From assembly GCA_024280015.1 (NCBI GenBank), contig JAJRQY010000021.1, forward strand, positions 1 through 56,205: a stretch of DNA of 56,205 nt, given 5' to 3'. Source of the DNA: Actinomycetes bacterium (GTDB lineage Bacteria; Actinomycetota; Acidimicrobiia; Acidimicrobiales; SZUA-35). The position numbers and the translations under genes are program-made. Below, one piece after another: positions 2,872-30,483 of this stretch. The notes beneath the pieces were generated by a model. The model saw only the letters and a program-made list of their open reading frames with translations, was not told where the DNA came from and did no database searches. Position 1 is the stretch's first letter. Each line of letters starts with the position of its first letter.

Positions 2872-3295
2872 CCCGATGCCATCACAGCAGTCGCCAATCG
2901 TGAGCATCATCGTTGATGCATCGGTTCTTGTTGCCGCTCTTGTCGGCGACGATGACGGGCCCTGGGCGCTGTCGGTGTTGGCGAGTGAAACCCTGTCCGC
3001 CCCGTACCTGATGGCAGTCGAGGCGACGAATGTCTTGAGACGCAGCCAGCTAGCCGGAGATCTCTCCTCTGACGTGGCATCAATGGCTCATGCCGACATG
3101 CAAACCCTGGCCATTAACTGGTTCCCCTATCTCCCGTTCGCTGACCGAGTCTGGGAACTCCGACAGAACGTCACTTCCAACGATGCCTGGTATGTGGCCC
3201 TAGCTGAAGAACTCGGGGCGCCATTGGCCACGTTGGATCGCAAGCTTGAACGAGCCTCTGGTCCAACTTGCAGCTTTCTCTTGCCGCCGACTTGA
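2855..3295 (+). CDS. vapC: PIN-domain ribonuclease toxin, VapC type
   Basis: PIN-domain protein of 146 residues from the ATG at 2855. Conserved acidic residues are visible: Asp in IIVDASVLVAAL near the N-terminus, Glu in AVEATNVLRR, Asp in SNDAWYVALAEEL and Asp in LATLDRKL. This is the four-acid metal site of VapC nucleases, which cleave tRNA or rRNA when freed from VapB. Starts at 2876 (ATG) or 2900 (GTG, directly before SIIVDAS) are also in frame; the GTG gives the length closest to the family. None has a strong ribosome-binding site, so coupling to vapB through the overlap is likely. The target RNA is unknown. Confidence 0.85.
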   Translation: MPTAHDPMPSQQSPIVSIIVDASVLVAALVGDDDGPWALSVLASETLSAPYLMAVEATNVLRRSQLAGDLSSDVASMAHADMQTLAINWFPYLPFADRVWELRQNVTSNDAWYVALAEELGAPLATLDRKLERASGPTCSFLLPPT

Positions 3296-24191: not shown

Positions 24192-24449
24192 ATGTTCGGG
24201 CATGCTCCACTCTCTTCAGCGCTTGGAGACACCGTTTTGTTCCCGATTTATGGTCATCAGGGCGGTTGGGACGAAGTATTGCTGGTAGCCATCCCCCTCG
24301 GCCTCATTGCGGGGCTGCTTTGGATCGCAAACAGGCGGGTGAATGCCCAGCTGAAGGAAGCAGAGCGCGTCGACACGGGCCAGACAGACACGGGCCAGAC
24401 AGACACGGGCCAGACAGACACAGGCCAGTCGACACCAAAGAATCTGTGA
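24192..24449 (+). CDS. Small single-pass membrane protein with DTGQT repeats
   Basis: 85 residues. There is one hydrophobic helix (about 28-47, VLLVAIPLGLIAGLLWIA), a basic NRR after it, and a cytoplasmic tail with four tandem DTGQT/S units. Function is unknown. Its stop overlaps the GTG of the next MFS transporter (GTGA), so the two are coupled and it may be an accessory subunit. A -10-like TACCCT lies eight nt before the ATG. Confidence 0.6.
   Translation: MFGHAPLSSALGDTVLFPIYGHQGGWDEVLLVAIPLGLIAGLLWIANRRVNAQLKEAERVDTGQTDTGQTDTGQTDTGQSTPKNL
24372..24431 (+). repeat. Four 15-bp tandem repeats
   Basis: The unit gacacgggccagaca occurs three times exactly and a fourth time with changes. Each copy is 15 bp, so gain or loss keeps the frame and only changes the length of the DTGQT tail. 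Confidence 0.85.
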
Positions 24450-25966
24450 CCACCGTAGCCCTCGATCAAGTTCTCGATCCCAAGACTGCGAAGCGTCTGG
24501 CTGAACCTCGGACCGACTTCCTGATCGAGGACGAGGTGACGCCGGGGGTGTTCGTCCAAGAACATGGCCCATTCAGTAGCTACCAGCGAACCCTCATTCA
24601 TGAGCCCCAGGCTGATGGCCAGGTACGGATCGTCGAAACCACCGAGTTTCGACTGGACATCCCCGTTTGGCGACCAATGTTCACCCCCCTTATGCGGCGC
24701 GGGCTCATCGAGCTTGATCGAGAGCCGCATCGACGTCGGTGGTGGCCAGAGGAAGTCATCACAACCCGAACGACCACCTTACTTTCGGTCCTGGCTGTCT
24801 TGAGCGTGGTTGCCGGCTACCTCGGTGTTGTTATTGGCCAGACCATCGCCTTTGCCGCCAAGGACTTCGGCGCCAACACCTCCCTGCAAGCGAACACCCT
24901 GGCTGCTCTACGGGTCGGAGTAGTGCTCTCAGCCATCTTGATCAGGCGGGCGGACCGCATCGGGCGGAGGCCTCTTCTTCTCGGCTTCGCCCTTGCATCT
25001 ATTCTTTTTACCGCCAGCGGTGCTTTGTCCAACGACATGCTGACCCTCGGCATCACCCAGGCACTGGCACGCGGTTTTGATACCGGCTTGCTGACCCTGT
25101 TGACCTTGGCCGTCACCGAAGAAGTACCGGCAGGGGTCCGCTCGCTGAGTATTGCCCTCATGGCCCTTGCCACTGGCTTTGGTGGTGCTTTGGTGCTTGC
25201 CGTACTTCCAACCGCAGATATTTCCAGCGGCAGCTGGCGAATCGTTTTTGTGGCCTCACTGGCCTTCTTGCCCGTCCTATGGTGGGTGGCGAAGAACCTT
25301 CCCGAGACGCGACGCTTCGACGTTGCGTCTGAACATCACTCACCAGGTCAGATCAACTGGCGGCGCTTCGCCTTGCTCGCCGTTTCGTCTTTTTGCGCCT
25401 CCCTGTTCTTGTCCCCGGCTTCTCAGCTTCAGAACACCTATCTCGATGCCGAGCGTGGGTTCTCCGCGGCGAAGATCAGCTTGTTTCGGGTCCTCATCTC
25501 TACCCCGGTTGGCCTCGTGATTCTGGCCGCTGGCTATTTCGCCGACCGCTATGGCCGCAAGCGAATTGGTTCAATGGGTCTAGCCCTCGGCACCGTCATG
25601 TCACTGACTTCCTATTATCAGAGTGGCGCCACGCTCTGGGTGTCGTCCTTGCTCAGCGTCTGGCTGCTCGGGGCTTCGTTCACGGCTCTGCGCGGCTATC
25701 AAACCGAGCTGTTTCCCACCAGAGCCCGAGCAAAGATTGGCGGGATGCTGGACGTTATTGCCGTCTCTGGTAGCGCACTTGGCCTGGTCATCGTTGGTCA
25801 TCTGAGCGTGGTATGGGGAAGCATTGGACCTGCCCTTCTCATGTTGCTGTGGGCTCCTCTCCTGGTGGCGTTCCTGGTCTCGACCAGGTATCCCGAAACC
25901 GCGTCCCGGGAGCTGGAAGAGTTCAACCCGGGTGACACCGCACTGGAGGCGCCCCATCACGAATAG
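24446..25966 (+). CDS. MFS transporter with a cytoplasmic N-terminal domain
   Basis: 506 residues from the GTG at 24446, which overlaps the previous stop as GTGA; upstream codons in this frame only reread the tandem repeat. Residues about 1-110 are soluble and look SRPBCC-like (FLIEDEVTPGVF ... IVETTEFRLDIPVW). Twelve transmembrane helices follow with MFS motifs IRRADRIGRRPLLLGF in the first half and GYFADRYGRKRIGSMG in the second, plus ELFPTRARA near the end, as in sugar/metabolite porters. The substrate is unknown. The soluble domain fused to a porter is the unusual feature. Confidence 0.82.
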   Translation: MTTVALDQVLDPKTAKRLAEPRTDFLIEDEVTPGVFVQEHGPFSSYQRTLIHEPQADGQVRIVETTEFRLDIPVWRPMFTPLMRRGLIELDREPHRRRWWPEEVITTRTTTLLSVLAVLSVVAGYLGVVIGQTIAFAAKDFGANTSLQANTLAALRVGVVLSAILIRRADRIGRRPLLLGFALASILFTASGALSNDMLTLGITQALARGFDTGLLTLLTLAVTEEVPAGVRSLSIALMALATGFGGALVLAVLPTADISSGSWRIVFVASLAFLPVLWWVAKNLPETRRFDVASEHHSPGQINWRRFALLAVSSFCASLFLSPASQLQNTYLDAERGFSAAKISLFRVLISTPVGLVILAAGYFADRYGRKRIGSMGLALGTVMSLTSYYQSGATLWVSSLLSVWLLGASFTALRGYQTELFPTRARAKIGGMLDVIAVSGSALGLVIVGHLSVVWGSIGPALLMLLWAPLLVAFLVSTRYPETASRELEEFNPGDTALEAPHHE

Positions 25967-26023
25967 CTCATAACCAACCCGCCCAGCCCGATAAGTATGC
26001 ATAAAACCTTGGAGGCTGGCACC

Positions 26024-26236
26024 GTGCACAAGACCTTTTTTGCGCTCATCGCAGCAGCTTTCTCTGCCGCAAGTCTCATGACGATTAGTCCAGTCGAAGC
26101 AGCGATCCAGTCCTCAGTGCTGATATCTGAGATTCACTACCATCCGACGGATGGAACCGAGTACGAGTTTATCGAGCTCTACAATCCCGGCAGCGATGAA
26201 GTTTCGCTTGACGGATTCGCCTTTACCGAGGCGTGA
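26024..26236 (+). pseudogene. Broken secreted lamin-tail/CotH protein, fragment A (signal peptide and start of lamin-tail domain 1)
   Basis: The start is GTG at 26024, with GGAGG at 26011-26015 spaced eight nt. A signal peptide (HKTFFALIAAAFSAASLM ... VEAA) is followed by the opening of a lamin-tail domain (SSVLISEIHYHPTDG, YEFIELYNPGSDEVSLDGF). The frame stops at 26234-26236 just after FAFTEA. Reading one base back gives GVTASLDGITIPANGY, the natural continuation, so one G is missing near 26230. This is either a real frameshift or an assembly error. Confidence 0.75.
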
Positions 26237-27417
26237 CTGCTTCACTCGACGGCATCACGATCCCAGCCAACGGATACGCCGTTCTCACGCCAGAAGCCAA
26301 CCTCTCCGAGGATGCCTACGGCATTGTTCCCGCCGGCACCTATCAAGGCAAGCTCTCGAACAAGGGTGAGATCATCGTCCTGACTCAGAGCGAACTCATC
26401 ATCGATGAGGTTGAGTATGACGACAAGGGCTATTGGCCGGTTGCAGCTGACGGCGACGGTTCCTCACTCGAGCTGATCGATCCCACCGTTGACAATTCAC
26501 TGTCGATTAACTGGTTCGCCGCTGATGCAGCACCGACACCTGGTGCAGCCAACAATCAACCGCCTGTCTTCGAGTTCTCCATCACAGATGTCGCTACAAC
26601 ACCGCTCGTTCCGAGTGCCAACCAAACAGTCCAGGTAGACGTCCAAGTTGAAGGCGAAGGCGTACCAGACCTTACTTATCGGGTTGGGCAAAACACGCCA
26701 GTTACCGAATCGATGCTTGAGGTCGGATCAGGCCACTTCCAGTCTGAGATTCCAGGCCAATCTGCGGGCGTGCTCATTCGATATCGGGTGGAGCACGGCT
26801 CAGTTTCAGTACCAGCTTCGAACGATTCACGGGGCTATCTCGGTGTTGTTGTCGCTAACCCATCAGCTACGACCGATGGTGCACCAATACATGAGTACTT
26901 CATGGATGACAGCGACTACGCGACGATGATGGCCAATCCCATGGATCGGACCCTTTCCTTCTCCGCTGTTGTCGCTTACGACGGTGAGGTCTTCGACGGG
27001 TCCACTGTTGCTATCCGGGGCGGTGACTACTCAAGACAAACCTATGACAAGCTCGCATTGGCGTTCGACCTTCCCAAAGGTTTTACCTTCGAGATCCCTG
27101 GGATCACGACCTATCCGGTGGACGAGTTTGCTTTGGCAACCGACGGTTCGGTCTCCGACTGGGGTCGCGCCGAGACCTCGTGGTGGCTATTTCAACAGGC
27201 AGGATTCCCCAAGGTTCACTCGGGGGTCTTGCGACTAGAACGAAACGGTACATTCCAAGGCGTCTATCGCTTCCAAGAAAAGCTTGACGGGATCTGGCGG
27301 ACTGCCAATGGACTGGTTGACGGCGACTTCTTCAAAGCCCCGCCGGACCTATATCGGACTGTCAACCGGCTACTTTCATCGACAAGTTGCCCTGGTTCGC
27401 AACAAGTTCGCCACTGA
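26233..27417 (+). pseudogene. Broken secreted lamin-tail/CotH protein, fragment B (rest of lamin-tail 1 and N-terminal half of CotH kinase)
   Basis: This frame completes lamin-tail domain 1 (ITIPANGYAVLTPEANL to NWFAADAAPTPGAAN), passes an Ig-like linker (FEFSITDVATTPLVPSANQ), and enters a CotH-type kinase domain (VAIRGGDYSRQTYDKLALAF, EFALATDGSVSDWGRAETSW, RLERNGTFQGVYRFQEKLD, GLVDGDFFKA). After about 27345 similarity ends and the frame runs out at 27417. The second half of CotH, which holds the catalytic Asp region, is absent. CotH proteins phosphorylate secreted or coat proteins; this copy cannot be active as read. Confidence 0.75.
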
Positions 27418-28438
27418 GTCTCGCATCCCGGCGCTTGGTGAACCAGCTTCCATCGTGATCTCAGAGATTCACCACAGTCCTCAAAACCAGGGCGCTGAGT
27501 TCCTTGAGCTGACGAACACCGGCGCTCTTCCAGTTGATCTCTCGGGTTGGCGAGTTGATGCCGTGTTTAAGAACGACAGGCCTATCCCCGGAGGAACCAT
27601 TCTTCTGCCCGGTGCGCGCCTCATCATGACTGAGTCGATCACACGACTCCAAGCTACTTACGCGGACCTTACGGACATTCCACTGATCGAGTTCAACGGG
27701 GGCCTCAAGGGATCTGGCGAAACAATCGAGCTAGTCACCGTCAATGGCCTCGTCGCCGATTCAGTCTCCTACTCCAAAGATGACCCGTGGCCCCAACCTG
27801 TCGACAATCGAACTCTCGAACTGATCGATCTCCAATCCGACAATGGCCTCGGCTCGAACTGGTCAGTCTCCTCCATCAATCTCGGTTCTCCAGGTGAGGA
27901 GAACTCACCTACGGACGACACTGGTAACGACACCCATGACACCAACGACACCGACGACAGTTCCGACGACACCGACGACACCGACGACACCGACGACACC
28001 GACGACACCGACGACGACACCGGCCACCACACCATCACCCTCACCGCCAAAGGCACCACCGGCCAAGAACAAATCAAACTCAACATCAACGGCCAAACCC
28101 ACGCCGACCTAACCCTCACCACCACCCTCACCACCTACGAATTCACCACCACAGCAATCAACAACCTCAACATCCAATTCACCAACGACAAAAGCCAACC
28201 AACAGACCGCAACGTCTACATCGACAACATCACCATCAACAACACCACCTACCAAACCAAAGCCCCATCCACCTACTCCACCGGCACCTACGGCCGCGGA
28301 ACCGGCTGCGCACCAGGCAACAAATCCTCATCCTGGCTCCACTGCAACGGCCACCTCGAATACGCCATCCAACCCCTCCCAACACCAACAACTGCGCCAC
28401 AAGCTCTTGTCGTCCGCAGCCCGGTGACTCAGTCCTGA
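27359..28438 (+). pseudogene. Broken secreted lamin-tail/CotH protein, fragment C (end of CotH, lamin-tail 2, acidic linker, CBM60-like domain)
   Basis: Back in the frame of fragment A, LSTGYFHRQVALVRNKF looks like the end of a CotH domain. A second lamin-tail domain follows (IVISEIHHSPQNQGAEFLEL to WSVSSINLGSPGE), then an Asp/Thr repeat linker. The last about 125 residues resemble a Ca-dependent xylan-binding module, CBM60 type (ITLTAKGTTGQEQIKLNING, IQFTNDK, VYIDNITINN, SSWLHCNGHLEYA). That module is almost pure A and C on the coding strand, unlike its surroundings. The frame may still be translated from an internal start, so I cannot exclude a shorter product. Confidence 0.7.
27964..28020 (+). 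repeat. 9-bp tandem repeat encoding an Asp-Asp-Thr linker
   Basis: The unit ccgacgaca is repeated about six times and encodes (DDT)n between lamin-tail domain 2 and the CBM60-like module. Such acidic Thr linkers are common between domains of secreted proteins. Confidence 0.85.
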
Positions 28439-28439
28439 T

Positions 28440-29384
28440 CTAGCTCTCGCACGCGTCTCGCAGCATCTGTTTGAACAAGGCTTCGTCGGCAACGGCGACA
28501 TACTCACAATTCGGCTCATCCACCAGATGGCCATAGTGGTCAATGAACGTGCCACCCTGTCCAGCATCGTCCATGCCGATGTCGACATTCACCGCTCGAG
28601 TTTCCAGCGCTACCGCCGGGTTGATGGCAACGGCCATCGCGATTGGATCCGGCAGGTCATAACCAGCCAAGCCTGTCTGGGCAATGGCGTAGTCGTTCAC
28701 CGCCTTGTTGATGTCAACCGCAAACTGGCCAATCGGGCCCAAGGCTCGAAGTTCGGCTTGCTCTTCCGAGGTGATGACGGCGTAACATCGCGAAATATCC
28801 CAGCCGACAAAGGTCAAGAGCCCGGGGGCATCGAGGACAATCTTGGCTGCCTCGGGATCACTCCAGATATTGAACTCACCAGCTCGGCCCACGTTGCCAA
28901 CACCATCGAAGGCTCCGCCCATCACCACAACGCGCTTGAAACACTCCAAGAAGTCCGGCTGCAACACAACCGCGGCGGCAATATTGGTCAATGGTCCCAG
29001 CGTTACCAAGGTGTGTTTGCCTCGCTCTTCGACTGCGATTCGGCGCAGCATGTCCACTGCGTGCTCTAGGCCAGCTGACCGGGTCGGTTCGGGGAGCTTC
29101 ACATTGCTCATCCCGTCAGAGCCATGCACAAACTCCGCGTCGGCCTGTCGCCGGAGCAGCGGATGCTCTATCCCTTGGTACAGGGGAATGTCTGAACGGC
29201 CGGCCATGTCGAGGGTCACGAGCGCATTTCGGGTGGCTTGGCCAAGATCGATGTTGCCGTACACCGTCGTGACTGCCCGGACCGAAACGCCAGGCAGGCG
29301 AGCAGCCATCAGTAGGGCTACGGCGTCATCGGAGCCCGTGTCGGTATCAACAATGAGGCTGACGTCAGAGGAGAGCGAATTCAC
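28440..29384 (-). CDS. Inosine-uridine preferring nucleoside hydrolase family
   Basis: 314 residues. The N-terminal calcium-binding signature is intact (LIVDTDTGSDDAVAL, Asp13, Asp15, Asp19 and Asp20), as are VTTVYGNIDLGQATRNAL, TLGPLTNIAAAV, VVMGGAF and EFNIWSDPEAA. The enzyme splits ribonucleosides into base and ribose for salvage. Its base preference is not predictable. It stops two bases past the convergent pseudogene stop. The start is GTG at 29384 with TAGCTT six nt before it. Confidence 0.92.
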   Translation of the reverse strand: MNSLSSDVSLIVDTDTGSDDAVALLMAARLPGVSVRAVTTVYGNIDLGQATRNALVTLDMAGRSDIPLYQGIEHPLLRRQADAEFVHGSDGMSNVKLPEPTRSAGLEHAVDMLRRIAVEERGKHTLVTLGPLTNIAAAVVLQPDFLECFKRVVVMGGAFDGVGNVGRAGEFNIWSDPEAAKIVLDAPGLLTFVGWDISRCYAVITSEEQAELRALGPIGQFAVDINKAVNDYAIAQTGLAGYDLPDPIAMAVAINPAVALETRAVNVDIGMDDAGQGGTFIDHYGHLVDEPNCEYVAVADEALFKQMLRDACES

Positions 29385-29390
29385 CGGATC

Positions 29391-29396
29391 AAGCTA
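29391..29396 (-). promoter_or_regulatory. -10 box of the nucleoside hydrolase gene (leaderless)
   Basis: TAGCTT on the minus strand, six nt before the GTG at 29384. Confidence 0.5.
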
Positions 29397-29455
29397 GCTC
29401 GACCGGCTCCACGCCACACAAGCTCCCAACACCAGTCAGGTGGGCGATATGGCTC

Positions 29456-30010
29456 TCAAGACAGCCAGTCAGCAACTGCTGCCAGCACGGCTGGATCATG
29501 CTTAGGAACCGGATCATGACCAGTCCGCTCCAACCAGAGTTCCGTGACCTCGCCAGCAATAGCAGGAAGGTGCGCGGCGAACTCGGGTTCCTTCCCAAAA
29601 GGATCGCTGGCGCCTTGGATGAGAAGAACCGGCAAGTCCAATTCCGGAAAGTGCTCAACTCGGAGTTTTTCCGGCTTCTTCGGCGGGTGCAAGGGGTAGC
29701 TCAGGAGAAGCAGCCCAGCCGCAGGCAGTCCGTCGGCAATAGCAATGGAGCAGGCCCGACCACCCATGGAACGGCCTCCCAGAACAAGATCTTCACGCTT
29801 CAACCCCCAGTCCTTGGCCAGTTGTGCCGTCTGGTCTTGGATGGAGGCAACGAGCTTGGGCATTCGGTCCGGCGGGCGTCGCCCAGGATTGTTCTTGCGG
29901 TATTCAAAATTGCAACGAGCAACCGGAATATCCAGATGATCTTCGAGAGCCAGAAAGAGACGGTGGTCCCGATTGCCTCCGGCTCCATGGAACAGAACGA
30001 GCCCTTTCAT
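29456..30010 (-). CDS. Small alpha/beta hydrolase (Tex30/KANL3-like)
   Basis: 184 residues from the ATG at 30010; a TTG at 30013 is directly before it. The nucleophile elbow is GGRSMGGRA (Ser81), the oxyanion region is LVLFHGAGGN, and the acid and base are in LIQGASDPFG and ERTGHDPVPKHDP. The compact size matches the alpha/beta-hydrolase group related to Tex30/KANL3. The substrate is unknown. It overlaps the J-domain gene upstream (TGATG), so both are on one transcript. Confidence 0.82.
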   Translation of the reverse strand: MKGLVLFHGAGGNRDHRLFLALEDHLDIPVARCNFEYRKNNPGRRPPDRMPKLVASIQDQTAQLAKDWGLKREDLVLGGRSMGGRACSIAIADGLPAAGLLLLSYPLHPPKKPEKLRVEHFPELDLPVLLIQGASDPFGKEPEFAAHLPAIAGEVTELWLERTGHDPVPKHDPAVLAAVADWLS

Positions 30011-30483
30011 CAATCCATTCCTTCTTGTGTCGCACCGAGCAGTACACGTCGAGCCTCGGTGAGGTCAGCAATTCGCTTTGCCGCATCTGCACTCACTCCC
30101 CCGTGATCAGGGTGGGCATCGCGCACCAACCTTCGAAAGGTTCGTTGAACCTGACGACGATTGAAACCAGTCACCTCAACCCCACCCATGCCGAACAGCT
30201 GCAGAGCCCACGAGGTCGGATCATTCCATGCTGTCAGCTCAAGGAGGTTGGCGCCACGACCTCCCATCACCTGGCTTATAAAGCGACCGTCAACTTCGCC
30301 TGTCCACATCAGAGCCACCAAAATAGCCTCAAAGACCGACACCTGACACTGCTCAGGCAACGAGGCCGCAGCATAGGAGGCAGCCAGAGCCTGCTGGATC
30401 GGCCGACCCGTATCCTCGGCGAATTCAAACCGGAGCTGGCCGCCAACGCCAATGAGCCGGTGCACACTGCTTAGGAGGCCCAC
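30010..30483 (-). CDS. J-domain protein with N-terminal extra domain
   Basis: 157 residues. The last about 55 residues form a J-domain core: helix II RRQVQRTFRRLVRDAHPDHGG includes the HPD motif needed to stimulate Hsp70 (DnaK), and helix III is KRIADLTEARRVLLG. The first 100 residues are unassigned and presumably recruit a client. There is no zinc finger or G/F region, so it is a class III J-protein. The start is GTG at 30483, and its stop overlaps the hydrolase start. Confidence 0.8.
   Translation of the reverse strand: MGLLSSVHRLIGVGGQLRFEFAEDTGRPIQQALAASYAAASLPEQCQVSVFEAILVALMWTGEVDGRFISQVMGGRGANLLELTAWNDPTSWALQLFGMGGVEVTGFNRRQVQRTFRRLVRDAHPDHGGVSADAAKRIADLTEARRVLLGATQEGMD

Follow-up and report, generated by a model that had tools for sequence, protein, structure and literature searches.

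Organisation of the locus

The window, i.e. the whole stretch of 56,205 nucleotides that was analysed, harbours at 26024-28438 on the + strand three open reading frames in only two phases. The ORFs span 25997-26236, 26233-27417 and 27284-28438 (all + strand). The middle one is out of phase with the other two, which share a phase, and the second phase change therefore undoes the first. The gene probably starts with the GTG at 26024, which is preferred and has a GGAGG motif 5' of it. The ATG at 25997 represents an alternative in-frame start of the first ORF. The features of the gene are as follows.

26011-26015, + strand: GGAGG, likely ribosome-binding site before GTG 26024 (sequence)
26024-26236, + strand: frame 1, beginning of the first lamin-tail domain, LTD1, behind a signal peptide seen by eye (LTD E 1.6e-8)
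26225-26240, + strand: first lesion with phase change, frame-1 stop TGA overlapping the frame-2 GTG (ORFs, alignment)
26233-27342, + strand: frame 2, rest of LTD1, Ig-like linker and CotH N-lobe, the latter at about 26887-27342 (relatives, Foldseek)
27335-27365, + strand: second lesion, about 165-175 CotH residues gone, phase returns (alignment with relatives)
27344-28438, + strand: frame 3, end of CotH, LTD2, acidic linker, CBM60 and tail (LTD E 3.9e-14, CBM60 E 1.3e-14)
27443-27775, + strand: LTD2 (LTD profile match)
28031-28279, + strand: CBM60, sole match in this genome (CBM60 profile match)
27962-28390, + strand: codon island, third positions C (113) or A (29) in 142 of 142 codons with synonymous choice

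The ORF of frame 2 itself continues past 27342 up to 27417. At 26233-26236 the frame-1 stop and the frame-2 start overlap in the sequence GTGA. Such stop/start overlaps are a layout known for coupled translation.

Both outer pieces match LTD (PF00932) above the curated cut-off of Pfam (35.4 and 53.4 bits vs 34.3), and the third piece additionally matches CBM60 (PF16841, 54.8 bits vs 28.2). The profile search gives no further LTD or CBM60 match in the own genome. The middle piece shows no Pfam match at all. CotH (PF08757) is not matched by Pfam in the fragment or anywhere else in the own genome, and it is matched in 7/7 CotH-type relatives scanned. NCBIfam matches to the gene are all far below cut-off. 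The structure of the middle piece was modelled (mean pLDDT 71.8) and compared using Foldseek, which finds 5jd9 and 5jda alone at E ≤ 0.001. The alignment comprises 144 columns, against a CotH structure of 358 residues (E 1.5e-5). According to the model, the N-lobe of the predicted kinase-like fold remains and the C-lobe is absent.

Comparison with intact relatives

The 22 matched loci were reduced by a duplicate (L097, identical to L019) and a fragment (L112). The resulting 20 aligned loci represent 19 distinct genes, since L006 and L110 coincide. Alignment to single-frame relatives shows that the three frames belong to one secreted LTD-CotH-LTD-CBM60 gene, as the original prediction had it, and likewise supports two opposite phase changes at 26225-26240 and 27335-27365. 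The frame change at ~26233-26236 sits inside LTD1, and the alignment to intact relatives continues across it. Frame 2 is 40-43% identical to the closest intact relatives.

The motifs FFKA and TGYF are separated by 8 residues in the window compared to 173-201 residues in all but one of the 19 distinct relatives; the exception, L101, is truncated at the border of the compared stretch. Judged by the alignment with relatives, the CotH domain has lost about 165-175 residues, corresponding to ~0.5 kb. The loss had been underestimated before, with a CotH domain of 185 instead of roughly 300 residues (~115 missing). An equally short CotH domain, which would have argued against a deletion, is found in 0/18 measurable distinct relatives.

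In order to locate catalytic residues, the B. cereus CotH structure (5jd9) was aligned to the CotH domain of a relative from the same order (G013). This alignment, combined with the 23-residue spacing in 5jd9, places the equivalents of Asp228 and Asp251 of B. subtilis CotH. Both fall within the stretch missing from the window. By eye, the first site of the alignment is Asp in 16/19 and Glu in 3/19 distinct relatives, the second is Asp in 18/18 distinct relatives not cut there. PMC7821199 describes the Asp228Gln and Asp251Ala forms of CotH as inactive. The gene thus lacks both activity-essential Asp, the catalytic and metal-binding residues of the CotH family. The kinase centre is lost between FFKA and TGYF, as had been proposed. 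Relative to its intact homologues, the gene carries disabling lesions in the alignment and is most likely a pseudogene. A relocation of the C-lobe within the assembly was considered and rejected because Pfam gives no CotH match in the genome.

Distribution and architecture of related proteins

A protein search with the middle piece yields matches in 6/39 genomes of the family, own included, whereby the match in G031 covers residues 8-154 only, i.e. the lamin-tail side. Within the order 17/397 genomes, again including the own, are matched at E ≤ 1e-20. G001, the sole further genome of this genus, shows no match to the middle piece. Four family members have single open frames of 982-1173 aa. In G013 the open frame extends to the contig end. 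Stops inside the match are not found in any of the matched CotH-type relatives.

The C-terminal parts are diverse. According to Pfam, LTD-CotH-LTD is followed by DUF4214 repeats in G008 and G020, by two CBM60 modules in G013 and by TSP3 and fn3 in G032; G449 has RTX repeats after the second LTD. As the C-terminal modules differ among relatives, the window gene belongs to a family with a variable C-terminal module. At least three families of the order (f1, f42, f81) have LTD-CotH proteins that are encoded in a single frame and whose C-terminal modules are exchangeable. The architecture LTD-CotH-LTD-CBM60 that had been highlighted is not unique, since a single open frame of G013 (L021) encodes it with two CBM60 modules.

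The proteins of the order, among others those of G008, G013, G020, G032 and G449, share the domain order with the window gene and are 30-41% identical to its middle piece; G013 additionally shares CBM60. In contrast to the window gene they are encoded in one frame, have a CotH match of ~230-300 residues and carry varied C-terminal modules. With the CotH spore-coat kinase family (PF08757; B. cereus 5jd9/5jda, B. subtilis CotH) the window gene has the N-lobe fold and flanking sequence in common. Unlike those kinases it lacks the C-lobe, both essential Asp and a Pfam match, and it displays an extracellular LTD/CBM architecture rather than that of a spore-coat protein. A literature search found no study of these LTD-CotH proteins, no match to this case for LTD/CotH/dockerin and no paper on CBM60 together with CotH.

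Proposed insertion site

The gene lies between two conserved neighbours.

24266-25966, + strand: MFS transporter, left conserved neighbour (Pfam MFS_1 E 5e-19; 74% identical in G001)
25967-29455: stretch of ~3.5 kb absent here in 7/7 relatives examined (locus comparison)
28440-29384, - strand: convergent nucleoside hydrolase, the other gene of the insert (Pfam IU_nuc_hydro E 5e-81)
29456-30013, - strand: alpha/beta hydrolase, right conserved neighbour (Pfam Abhydrolase_11; adjoins MFS in relatives)

The MFS gene is matched in 12/12 relatives searched. The best 7 of these 12 were used to compare the site (G001, G002, G003, G004, G006, G007 and G008). In all seven the alpha/beta hydrolase gene directly follows the MFS gene, with a gap of ~20 bases in G001. 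In the window the two are ~3.5 kb apart and enclose the CotH-type gene and the nucleoside hydrolase gene. As the site is empty in 7/7 relatives examined, an insertion in the lineage of the window is the simplest reading. Judged by these locus comparisons, the CotH-type gene probably entered this lineage from elsewhere. Ancestral presence followed by loss in all seven relatives would be a less simple alternative.

A nucleoside hydrolase gene is not found beside intact CotH genes (~1.5 kb of flank for most), which lends no support to a joint arrival of the two genes. Outside the codon island the gene has a GC3 of 0.59-0.61, which is within the range of its neighbours. Codon use is thus like that of the neighbours there, and composition is silent on a foreign origin. 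A donor search in plasmid, phage and viral collections found none. Viral contigs contain no confirmed relative of the middle piece or CBM60, plasmids no relative of frame 3 and phages none of CBM60; the single PHROGs match is weak (E 0.06) and concerns the linker. A phage or plasmid origin is hence unsupported by these searches.

The start of the listed MFS ORF (~24365-24425) consists of tandem RHGPD repeats, with similar SVWPV repeats on the opposite strand. The match to the MFS protein of G001 begins near residue 44-49, and the true MFS start may lie downstream.

A codon island over the acidic linker and CBM60

Within 27962-28390, 143 consecutive codons have A or C at the third position, with ATG and TGG treated as neutral, and none of the 142 codons with synonymous choice ends in G or T. 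In the rest of the gene ~45% have G or T at the same position. The edges are sharp, as LTD2 upstream and the last 15 codons downstream are ordinary.

As a protein module, this CBM60 is a regular member of its family (PF16841, solved structures 2xfd and 2xhh), being well above the curated cut-off; the solved homologues were found starting from the CBM60 of G013. Its coding DNA, on the other hand, is unlike that of 109/112 distinct modules compared, which derive from the fetched loci. The fraction of A/C at third positions over all modules except that of the window is 0.61 on average (s.d. 0.12). Two others stand out, one of G640 (0.94) and one of G564 (0.90), the latter in a protein with an apiosidase-like domain. 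The next highest are L054 with 0.81 (73 codons) and L118 with 0.79. A general A/C bias of CBM60 was rejected, given the mean of 0.61 and a module exceeding the rest of its own gene in 65/110 cases. For the nearest paralogues of the G564 module, which share 69% identity with it, the values are 0.75 and 0.78. It looks as if such codon bias fades.

The CBM60 modules with codons ending almost only in A or C within otherwise ordinary genes are the following.

27962-28390 of the window
1495-1830 of L124
2153-2497 of L146

Islands of ≥70 codons were searched in 886,875 bases, a redundant set chosen mostly for CBM60 or CotH. Six were found, namely the three CBM60 modules and three that are repeat-like or in the wrong frame by eye. 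In 350,596 bases of the own genome, window included, there are six other runs of ≥32 codons, all repeat-like or antisense by eye. A 41-codon run in L084 was discarded as a codon island because it is antisense to another ORF. A profile search of genome contigs with CBM60 gave one weak match only (Winogradskyella), and a literature search on codon islands returned no match to this case.

Two further observations concern such runs. The G640 gene (L146) has a second A/C-coded CBM60 copy at ~2910-3067, which by eye is the same over ~50 residues and runs off the contig end. In L025 (G006, same family) a run of 46 codons with A or C at the third position lies at 1309-1446 along the minus strand, by eye in a fibronectin-type module.

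The CBM60 module of the window can be a recently acquired cassette. The other two island modules share 35% and 40% protein identity with it, which is too low for all three islands to stem from one recent transfer. Their occurrence in three genera, two families and different host proteins suggests more than one accident. It is a doubtful idea that CBM60 modules of these bacteria sometimes travel or evolve as sharply bounded cassettes, with nearly all codons ending in A or C, in ordinary genes. Candidate causes may be strand-biased mutation, selection for mRNA without wobble G/U or a donor with such usage.

Age of the loss

Besides the two lesions there is no in-frame stop over 2,414 sites in the three pieces. 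A stop arises from 3.2% of single changes, so that a divergence of 0.038 changes per site would be expected to yield three stops. This value is a rough upper bound, given that openness was the criterion for choosing the frames. At positions before the deletion that are invariant in six relatives, the window keeps 72/81 and the relatives 72 of 73-79. The window is thus slightly the lowest (L096 and L021: 72/79). For LTD2 five relatives were compared, as L098 ends before this domain. Here the window keeps 24/29 of the invariant positions, the same as L096 and L099, and the other three show 24 of 25 or 26. As few further lesions have accumulated, the loss appears recent on that count.

Probable origin and decay of the gene

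Taken together, we favour, with a probability of roughly 0.74, an acquired and then recently decayed pseudogene of a secreted CotH-type kinase acting at the surface, with two LTDs and a CBM60, a reading based on sequence comparison. The empty sites suggest that an intact gene would have entered, with or beside the nucleoside hydrolase gene, between the MFS and alpha/beta hydrolase genes. Going by its protein families, the substrates of the intact ancestor were probably proteins at the surface or outside the cell, while LTD and CBM60 would anchor the kinase on wall or matrix polysaccharide. A small lesion would then have changed the frame in LTD1, and an internal deletion of ~0.5 kb would have taken the kinase C-lobe along with both essential Asp.

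The main rival is an assembly error, in which one base and ~0.5 kb of a gene that is actually intact would have been dropped from the draft, e.g. by strain collapse. With a draft genome of 175 contigs (96.6% complete), either lesion could arise in this way. However, this would take two independent errors within one gene. The MFS and alpha/beta hydrolase genes on either side align continuously with relatives, and the missing C-lobe was not found elsewhere in the assembly. We hence regard this explanation as unlikely.

Considerably less probable is a functional remnant, whose pieces would still be produced and bind at the surface without kinase activity, e.g. through re-initiation at the GTGA or with LTD2-CBM60 translated on its own. 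The frame-2 GTG overlapping the frame-1 stop and the largely kept conserved positions are in line with this. Frames 2 and 3 would however be devoid of a signal peptide, the break in LTD1 runs through the fold, the kinase lacks its C-lobe and the matched CotH-type relatives show no stop inside the match. Programmed frameshifting would account for two phase changes that cancel, but is highly improbable as no slippery heptamer is visible by eye at 26225-26240, the missing C-lobe could not be restored and the relatives need no such mechanism.

With the pseudogene reading, there is nothing unusual in the fate of the kinase gene: as an accessory surface gene of patchy distribution, it was gained and later broke. 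It is the codon island, rather than the ordinary kinase part, that deserves another look. If it recurs in mobile binding modules, such an island would be a sign either that a module was transferred recently or that a local process acts on mutation or translation.
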